Positions 19,753 through 30,520 of a stretch of DNA of 33,647 nt are shown piece after piece. Location: assembly GCA_002239025.1 (NCBI GenBank), contig MPNM01000028.1:1-33647 (forward strand). The letters run 5' to 3'. The position numbers and the translations under genes were made by a program. The DNA is from Chloroflexi bacterium bin125. GTDB lineage: Bacteria > Chloroflexota > Dehalococcoidia > Bin125. A model generated the notes under the pieces. It had not been told where the DNA came from. It did not search any database and saw only the letters and a list, made by a program, of their open reading frames with translations. How positions within the stretch are numbered: the first letter of the stretch is position 1; every line of letters starts with the position of its first letter.

Positions 19753-19894
19753 TTCCCTTCTCCCCCCTTGCGAGGGAGATGCCGAAGGCAGAGGGGGGGC
19801 TGCCCGTTGGCCCTATCTGGTCATCGCCAGCCGACCCCCCTCTGTCACTCTGTGACATCTCCCCTCGCAAGGGGGGAGAGGGGAATCGGAGGAT
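19753..19894 (+). repeat. dispersed ~135-bp inverted-repeat element, copy 1
   Basis: Two arms of about 45 bp face each other around a short spacer containing CTATCTGGT. The left arm has the form CTTCTCCCCCCTTGCG..GAGATGCCGAAGGCAGAGGGGG. The right arm is its near mirror, with GTCACTCTGTGAC in place of the CCGAAGGC part. A tail with GGAATCGGAGGATATGCATC and a further G-rich block extends to about 19937. It fills the space between convergent genes (LLM monooxygenase and SDR). Confidence 0.9.
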
Positions 19895-21845: not shown

Positions 21846-22000
21846 TTGACCCCCTCCAAACGGCTCGGCGGCTCAGATTGGAATCGAGCCTAACGCCTCA
21901 GGTACTCCAGGATGTCCTGCTGCTCACGGGATTTGGCGTGCTCACGTATGAAATCCTTAGACTGCCCAACTGAACCATGTGCCGAGTGAGGACAACTGCG

Positions 22001-23089
22001 ATGACTACAATCTCCGCTCCGTTCGCTTATGTGGACACGACCTGGCCGGTGCTTGAGCGCATGGCCGAGGCGCATCGCCGTAGCTGGGAGATGCTCGCCG
22101 CGCTAGGTGAGTGGTGGACGGGCGCTGAGCGCATTTCGATCGCCGCTGAGAGCCGGCGTGCGTCGGCATTGGTCGATGGCCTGCCCGATCCCGGTCCAGG
22201 CCCGGCGGAGCTGCCCGAGGCTGCCACCTTCGCAGTCCACAAGCTGATCGCCGATCTGCCCAACGTGACGAAGGACTGGTACGACGAAGTCACCACGGCC
22301 GACGGGATGACAGACGCTCACTACATTGAGCTCCTCGGCGTCGTCGTTAACGTCTGGTCGGTCGACGAGTTTCATCGAGCGCTTTCGCTGCCGCTGGAAC
22401 CGCTGCCGGACCCAATCGCTGGGACGCCTGGCGGGATCCGTCCGTCCGGGGCGAAACCGCATGGCAGTTGGCCGCCGACCGTCTGGCCTGATGATCTGGA
22501 CGAGCGTGACCTGGACATCTACGACGGAGAAGAGCGCGCCGCGAACGTGCGTGCCGCGATGAGCCTGCACCCTGACAGCGTCCGCTGGCTGGGCGATCTG
22601 TTCGACGCGCACTATCTCAGTTGGATCGAGATTGGTGGGGAACAGGAACCGTTCCGTGTGCTGACACGTCCCCAGCGCGAGCTAGTCGCGGCGAGAGTAT
22701 CCGCGCTGAACGAGTGCTTCTATTGAACGATTTCACACGTAATGCTGCTCGGTCGGAGCAGCGAAGGTGACGACTCGGTCAATCTCAACGGGACGGTGCG
22801 AAACGAAGTCGACAGCGGCGTCGAGCACGGCGAAGTCCTGCTGCGCTACTCGGACGCAGCCGTGGGACGCACCGCGAACCTCGCCGAGGCTCGTGAGGTA
22901 GTCAACACGGCCATGGGGCCAGACGCTGTCGTCGATTGCGCCGCAACCATCGCCAACTTCCAGCGCATGGTCAGAATCGCCGACGGTTGCGGCATTCCCC
23001 TCGATTCCATCTCACGTCGTGAGTCGGAAAAATGGCGAGAAGGTCTGCAGATCGACGGGTTCCGCAGTCGCCTGAATACGTTTGCCTGA
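22001..23089 (+). CDS. AhpD-like (carboxymuconolactone decarboxylase family) selenoprotein
   Basis: I annotate this as one 362-residue protein read through an in-frame TGA at 22724-22726, which encodes selenocysteine. Before the TGA the frame ends VSALNECFY; after it the same frame continues TISHVMLLG and runs 121 codons to 23089. The result is Cys239-x-x-Sec242-x-x-x-His246, the AhpD/CMD redox motif CxxC-x3-H with Sec for the second Cys. The C-terminal part (ATIANFQRMVRIADG) matches the family's final helices, so it is not chance sequence. A SECIS-like hairpin follows the TGA. AhpD proteins reduce peroxides or act as disulfide reductases. WWTGAERISIAAES is the N-terminal half of this doubled family. 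Start: ATG at 22001 after GAGGA. Alternative: a nonsense mutation, unlikely at exactly this codon. Confidence 0.9.
22724..22762 (+). promoter_or_regulatory. bacterial SECIS-like element with recoded UGA
   Basis: The UGA is at 22724-22726. A perfect 7-bp stem GCTGCTC (22744-22750) with GAGCAGC (22756-22762) closes the five-base loop GGTCG at 22751-22755. The loop starts with GG and lies 24 nt after the UGA, inside the known range for bacterial SECIS elements. SelB would bind here to insert selenocysteine. The selA, selB, selC and selD genes are not in the window. Confidence 0.88.
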
Positions 23090-23146
23090 GAACGGGTGAT
23101 GTAGCGACTTTCAATCTTCCCCTGGGAGGGTTGAGCCTTGACCCAA

Positions 23147-23281
23147 TCCCCTTCTCCCCCCTTGCGGGGGAGATGCCGAAGGCAGAGGGGGGTCTCTGTT
23201 GATCAGCCCTATCTGGTGATCACCGGCCGCCCCCCCTCTGTCACTCCGTGACATCTCCCCCCGCAAGGGGGGGAGAGGGGA
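23147..23281 (+). repeat. dispersed ~135-bp inverted-repeat element, copy 2
   Basis: This copy has the same plan as copy 1: a left arm with CCGAAGGCAGAGGGGG, a centre with CCCTATCTGGTGATCACC, and a right arm with GTCACTCCGTGACATCTCCC. It lies between the convergent selenoprotein and amidase genes, 57 bp after the former. Confidence 0.9.
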
Positions 23282-23342
23282 TAGCGCGGCTCGGGCGGTA
23301 ACAGTCATCTCTTGACATTCCCAGCCATCATTTCAACAAACT

Positions 23343-28956: not shown

Positions 28957-29131
28957 TCCCCTTCTCCCCCCTTGCGGGGGAGATGCCGAAGGCAGAGGGG
29001 GGGTTCCCTGCCTGGTGGCCCTATCTGGTCGTCGCCAGCCAACCCCCCCTCTGTCACTCTGTGACATCTCCCCCCGCAAGGGGGGGAGAGGGGAATCGGA
29101 GGTTGTGCATCGGTCTCTGCAAGGGGGAGCG
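28957..29131 (+). repeat. dispersed ~135-bp inverted-repeat element, copy 3, with tails
   Basis: Core 28957-29096 with the same arms and CCCTATCTGGTCGTCGCC centre. The right tail (GGAATCGGAGGTTGTGCATC and a G-rich block) resembles that of copy 1. On the left, 28912-28953 looks like the reverse complement of the outer tail of copy 1 (CCTCAGCCTTCGGCAG), so the full unit may reach about 28912-29131. It lies between the convergent carboxylase and epimerase genes. Confidence 0.88.
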
Positions 29132-30316: not shown

Positions 30317-30520
30317 TCCCCTTCTCCCCCCGCAAGAGCCTGATGCATATCCTCCGATTCCCCTCTCCCCCCCTTGCGGGGGGAGATGTCACGGAGTGAC
30401 AGAGGGGGGTCGGTCGGTGAGTACCAGATAGAAGTTGCGGACAGCCCCCCTCTGCCTTCGGCATCTCCCCCGCAAGGGGGGAGAAGGGGAGTCATGCATC
30501 AATCTCCACAAGGGGCAGAG
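30317..30520 (-). repeat. dispersed ~135-bp inverted-repeat element, copy 4, with tails
   Basis: Core 30359-30491, in reverse orientation to copies 1-3. The GCCGAAGGC arm is on the right and the GTCACGGAGTGAC arm on the left, with CTATCTGGT in the centre when read on the minus strand. Tails with ATGCATATCCTCCGATTCCC (left) and a G-rich block (right) extend it to about 30317-30520. It lies behind the amidohydrolase stop and ahead of the epimerase start, both minus-strand genes. Confidence 0.88.

Follow-up and report, generated by a model that had tools for sequence, protein, structure and literature searches.

Does the TGA codon at positions 22724-22726 end a gene, or is it read as an amino acid within one? 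The question arises in a 33,647-nt stretch of DNA from Chloroflexi bacterium bin125 (contig MPNM01000028.1, analysed whole and called the window here), where ordinary table 11 calling reports two open reading frames, 21977-22726 and 22742-23089, on either side of this codon. The source genome is a draft of 66 contigs, metagenome-assembled going by the records of its relatives. A preliminary description of the locus had proposed that automatic calling splits a single gene at the TGA, that the downstream frame is in phase and continues an AhpD fold, and that the TGA occupies the second Cys position of a CxxC motif with a His following. All three proposals are borne out by the present analysis. 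The frame 22001-23086 is open apart from this single TGA and, read with TGA as selenocysteine (Sec, residue 242), encodes one protein of 362 aa (Table 1). In the translation the codon stands in the context ...SALNECFYUTISHVM..., where, within ECFYUTISH, it takes the place of the second Cys in the AhpD motif CxxC-xxx-H (CFYU-TIS-H). The two called fragments are almost certainly one gene whose internal TGA is read as selenocysteine. From the reading frame, the selection acting on it, a downstream hairpin, the selenocysteine machinery and the conservation of the TGA, we assign 22001-23089 with high confidence to a selenoprotein of the NF041238 family, and we infer Sec insertion itself. The assignment rejoins a gene that automatic calling had divided, in a Dehalococcoidia lineage that is uncultured. 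The start at 22001 is better placed than that at 21977, since a GAGGA lies eight bases upstream of it and homologues begin there.

Table 1. Features of the selenoprotein gene and its product, in window coordinates.
Feature	Position	Strand	Evidence or remark
Complete gene, AhpD-related selenoprotein	22001..23089	+	362 aa; TGA 22724-22726 = Sec242; stop TGA 23087-23089
Likely ribosome-binding site (GAGGA), 8 nt upstream of ATG 22001	21988..21992	+	sequence inspection
N-terminal AhpD/CMD-fold half, without cysteines (pseudo-domain; predicted)	22001..22450	+	fold comparison; weak sequence similarity to C half
C-terminal AhpD-core domain with Glu227, Cys239, Tyr241, Sec242, His246	22457..23047	+	
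CFYUTISH redox motif (Cys239-Phe-Tyr-Sec242-Thr-Ile-Ser-His246)	22715..22738	+	
In-frame TGA, read as Sec	22724..22726	+	reading frame and homologue comparison
bSECIS hairpin, 7-bp stem GCUGCUC/GAGCAGC, loop GGUCG	22744..22762	+	folding, codon-level test, published rules

The in-frame TGA is a fixed property of this gene. Full-length homologues of the 362-aa protein turned up in 13 of the 15 genomes of the genus, the source genome included, and in one further genome from a different genus within this family (G017); every one of these genes contains exactly one in-frame TGA. With the NF041238 model, 294 genomes of the class gave 30 genes over the cut-off, spread over 16 genomes; all 30 have one in-frame TGA, which falls at the codon of residue 242 in every over-cut-off gene whose codons were read (several genomes occur in two record sets, under G handles and in genome_contigs, and locus counts are not additive). 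Pairwise comparison of the window gene with four relatives gave dN/dS values of 0.076-0.132 for the part before the TGA and 0.069-0.161 for the part after. Because these values are alike on both sides, the region 3' of the TGA is translated and subject to selection. The idea that the TGA is a nonsense mutation or miscall ahead of a decaying frame, to which the split gene call and the draft state of the genome might lend themselves, has a negligible probability and is already refuted by the same TGA in every over-cut-off homologue, including three copies in the source genome, and by the purifying selection, equal after the TGA and before it.

The TGA could also be a true stop, with the N-terminal product and the 115-residue open reading frame at 22742 made as separate polypeptides. 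An ATG at 22742, shortly after the TGA, does open such a frame, but residues 243-247, which lie between the TGA and this ATG, are conserved, with Thr243 and His246 invariant, and in the predicted structure the split would cut the helix pair that bears the active site. Moreover, the preliminary description had called for a search among homologues for Cys at the TGA position, and such genes were found: the aligned codon in more distant relatives is either TGA or TGC, and those with Cys (TGC in L047 and L048) have a single frame. We therefore regard two separate polypeptides as highly improbable and continue with a single selenoprotein.

Reading UGA as Sec in bacteria calls on a hairpin in the mRNA (bSECIS), for which published rules give a loop of 3-9 nt, a stem of 4-16 bp, a G in the first two loop positions, a distance from UGA to loop of 16-37 nt and an MFE of at most -7.5 (PMC13188914). 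The hairpin GCTGCTC-GGTCG-GAGCAGC falls within all of them: its loop is 5 nt, its perfect stem 7 bp, the distance 24 nt and the energy about -13 kcal/mol (-13.1), in agreement with the earlier claim that it fits bacterial SECIS requirements. The 7-bp stem and GGTCG loop had also been described correctly; the distance of 24 nt, given as that of the hairpin, is the distance to the loop, and the stem starts at 17 nt. The hairpin exceeds chance expectation. Of 5000 synonymous recodings that preserve the peptide, only 34 give a fold this stable, and among the 1099 TGAs of the window 61 are followed by a qualifying perfect-stem hairpin, 15 of which reach -11 kcal/mol or below. A looser rule that allows bulges is uninformative in DNA this rich in G+C; it is passed by 33 of 37 CFYU genes and also by 94 of 200 background TGAs, and for this reason it was dropped as evidence.

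Covariation between the paired bases of the hairpin is weak, without excess over a shuffled control, because the codons of the arms hardly vary, and a third-base test was used in its place. Across 24 genes the commonest third base averages 63%, and the third base is invariant in only 4 of the 212 fourfold or sixfold codon columns. These four are the consecutive codons 249, 250, 251 and 252, which span the 5' arm and the loop of the hairpin, and the third base stays fixed through the amino acid changes at two of them (Gly/Arg at 251, Arg/Glu at 252). This third-base freeze is the strongest evidence that the hairpin is a bSECIS, and it adds clean evidence, at the nucleotide level, of selection on the bSECIS of the NF041238 family. 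A different hairpin, with a stem of 8-9 bp and a GGA, GGC or GTT triloop, is present in single-domain relatives (L044, L046, L095, L096, L098 and L103). The loop in these shorter AhpD relatives starts 17 nt after the TGA rather than 24 nt, which places the bSECIS of the two subfamilies 7 nt apart.

A Sec codon presupposes a genome able to use it, and the preliminary description had proposed looking for selA, selB, selC and selD. All four are present. Neither of the two observations that it had named as refuting its proposal, a genome without Sec machinery or homologues with neither Cys nor Sec at the TGA position, was made. A family-by-family search of the source genome for Sec genes recovered selA (515.7 bits), selB (over the cut-off at 328 bits, in a 622-aa frame), selC (66.4 bits; called by ARAGORN as tRNA-SeC with anticodon tca, UCA) and selD (350.8 bits), the last with a Sec codon of its own in a CGGU site. 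Besides SelD, the Sec genes of this genome comprise the three NF041238 copies and a small AhpD. With the set complete and several Sec genes carried, the organism should make Sec, and its genome offers a reasonable setting for studying the role of selenium in AhpD-fold enzymes. The small AhpD is a second, single-domain AhpD selenoprotein gene (contig C30; L071:2788-3312) with a CSVU site whose TGA is immediately followed by a strong hairpin.

The remaining possibility for the codon is that UGA is read as another amino acid, as Trp or, by misreading, as Cys. Nothing beyond the open frame speaks for this, and against it stand the complete Sec system with its other Sec genes, the conserved bSECIS-type hairpin at the right distance, and the neighbouring genes, which, when called with table 11, align for the greater part with known families, so that TGA looks like a normal stop elsewhere. 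We consider this reading very unlikely. According to the selenocysteine reading that we prefer, SelB carrying Sec-tRNA(UCA) would bind the downstream hairpin and the UGA would be decoded as selenocysteine to give the 362-aa protein.

The protein belongs to a family that is already known. It matches the NCBIfam equivalog model NF041238.1 (AhpD_rel_CFYUT; curated name 'alkylhydroperoxidase-related (seleno)protein') at 328.4 bits against a cut-off of 175, over residues 19-356. The match is full-length, with the same CFYUT motif, Sec at the second position of CxxC, and the same length (profile 357); nothing essential sets the two apart, although the source genome has three copies, one lone and two in tandem. 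The family was first reported in 2005 from four sequences as hypothetical protein 1 of the Sargasso Sea (PMC1088965), and a 2026 review lists an 'AhpD-related protein (hypothetical protein 1, Sargasso Sea metagenome)' with CxxU (PMC13188914, Table 1) among the selenoproteins predicted with high confidence. The window gene adds one member. Thus the earlier statement that Sec-containing AhpD-like proteins are known from marine metagenomes (PMC1088965, PMC2398784) is correct, and the view that this architecture still awaits annotation is overtaken by the curated model and the review. Our literature searches found no biochemical characterisation of the NF041238 family, no occurrence of the string CFYUT, and no work linking selenoprotein, alkylhydroperoxidase and Chloroflexi together. 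The marine AhpD-like 1/2 and CMD selenoproteins (PMC1088965, PMC2398784) likewise have CxxU in an AhpD/CMD fold, but they are filed under COG2128, Pfam02627 or TIGR01926, whereas the window protein scores 31 bits with TIGR01926, under its cut-off of 81.8, and has a second AhpD-fold half in front.

Predicted structure accounts for both halves. The whole-protein model has a pLDDT of 85 and a pTM of 0.88. Sequence comparison matches the C half to AhpD-core structures (6k40, E 7.8e-13; 2prr, E 3.3e-10), as does comparison of its predicted structure (Z 12-13.5). By spacing, its Glu227, Cys239, Tyr241, Sec242 and His246 correspond to Glu74, Cys86, Tyr88, Cys89 and His93 of 2prr, which are named in PMC4674687; none of the five varies in the alignment. 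The C half thus combines a predicted AhpD-core fold with the Glu and CxYC(U)xxxH relay of the AhpD type. The N half contains zero cysteines, and a Pfam CMD search detected no domain in it. Aligned to the C half by hhalign, it gave P 0.004 and a probability of 9%, a sequence similarity that is only suggestive, and fold comparison was therefore used. Modelled alone (pLDDT 87.9), the N half had 16 top matches that were all AhpD/CMD or sestrin chains (Z 9.1-5.5), the next unrelated fold following at Z 3.8. An AhpD fold for the N half is supported by this model, in which the best Z lies where helical bundles can match by arrangement and the list is uniformly AhpD/CMD/sestrin; the N-terminal CMD half of the preliminary description would accordingly stand as a pseudo-domain devoid of Cys. 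Whereas the N half of the window protein has no CxxC, some relatives (L067-L069 and a copy in L088) keep one there, as DCGLC in L069 and DCPIC in L068.

Taken whole, the model looks like a fused AhpD dimer. Fused dimers with a Cys active site are known in the alkylhydroperoxidases of Corynebacterium and Comamonas and in YciW (PMC11429811). As in the window protein, the active-site pair of the Corynebacterium and Comamonas enzymes lies in the C half and the N half is devoid of Cys, but theirs is CxxC rather than CxxU; in YciW the cysteine spacing differs. The best match to the whole model is human Sestrin2 (5dj4/5t0n; Z 17.4, 246 residues, 3.4 Å), which shares the two-lobed, pseudo-symmetric overall fold at 10% identity, and we do not claim descent. 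Catalysis in Sestrin2 resides in the N half (Cys125), its C half being modified for GATOR2 (PMC4674687), whereas the active site of the window protein is in the C half. Sestrins are defined by a catalytic Cys in the N half and by replacement of the C-half helix-turn-helix with an electronegative hinge (PMC11429811, PMC4674687). Assignment to the sestrins was rejected, the N half having no Cys and the C-half helix-turn-helix being intact with CxxU.

These features suggest how the enzyme might work. Two AhpD-like halves would be joined in one chain, the N half, having lost its cysteines, serving a structural role, and the C half would provide the active-site residues Cys239-Phe-Tyr-Sec242-xxx-His246, Glu227 acting as the proton relay. 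From AhpD chemistry, we infer that the Sec242 selenolate, activated through the Glu227/Tyr241/His246 relay, would attack a hydroperoxide or disulfide, and that Cys239 would resolve the resulting selenenic acid to a selenenylsulfide, to be reduced by a presumed thiol partner. Most likely the enzyme would reduce alkyl hydroperoxides or act as a dithiol-type reductant in an AhpC/AhpD-like relay; by analogy, we lean towards peroxide reduction as the reaction. A selenoprotein with another job, such as a disulfide/thiol adaptor or, like the CMD-fold debrominase Bmp8, an enzyme for a special electrophile, is a less likely but serious alternative. The fold matches include Bmp8 (6ohi, Z 13), and the neighbouring window genes that were inspected contain no recognisable redox partner, AhpC-like or other. 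Against such a job, the Glu, Tyr and His of the AhpD-type peroxidase relay are all invariant, an arrangement with which other substrates are still compatible.

The two further NF041238 copies of the source genome, A and B, form a tandem on contig C51 (L070:7764-9922), both with Sec, adjoining the riboflavin synthesis genes ribD, ribE, ribBA and ribH. Comparison of shared gene clusters showed that A and B are kept beside the riboflavin genes in most relatives compared. The hairpin of the B paralogues has an apical stem of only 5 bp (-4.8 kcal/mol alone). The window copy is of the A type and lies in an unrelated neighbourhood of enoyl-CoA hydratase, SDR, amidase and LLM oxidoreductase genes. The tree joins it to L064_A (support 99/92), which is also located away from the riboflavin locus, and not to the tandem A of its own genome. 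It is conceivable, though unlikely, that the A and B Sec paralogues, which occur in tandem across the genus, pair as a four-lobed selenoenzyme with a divided job, from which the window copy, as a surplus A subunit, has moved away. In one species a short stretch beside a lone B copy (G005:C9:138195-138356) matches residues 266-322 and is perhaps the remnant of a lost A copy.

Just 3' of the window gene lies a palindromic dispersed repeat of about 137 bp (23146-23282). Further copies of this MITE/REP-like repeat occur in the window at 19755-19884, 28957-29094 and 30359-30490, and copies across the genome show 86-92% identity (40 of 201 candidates scored).
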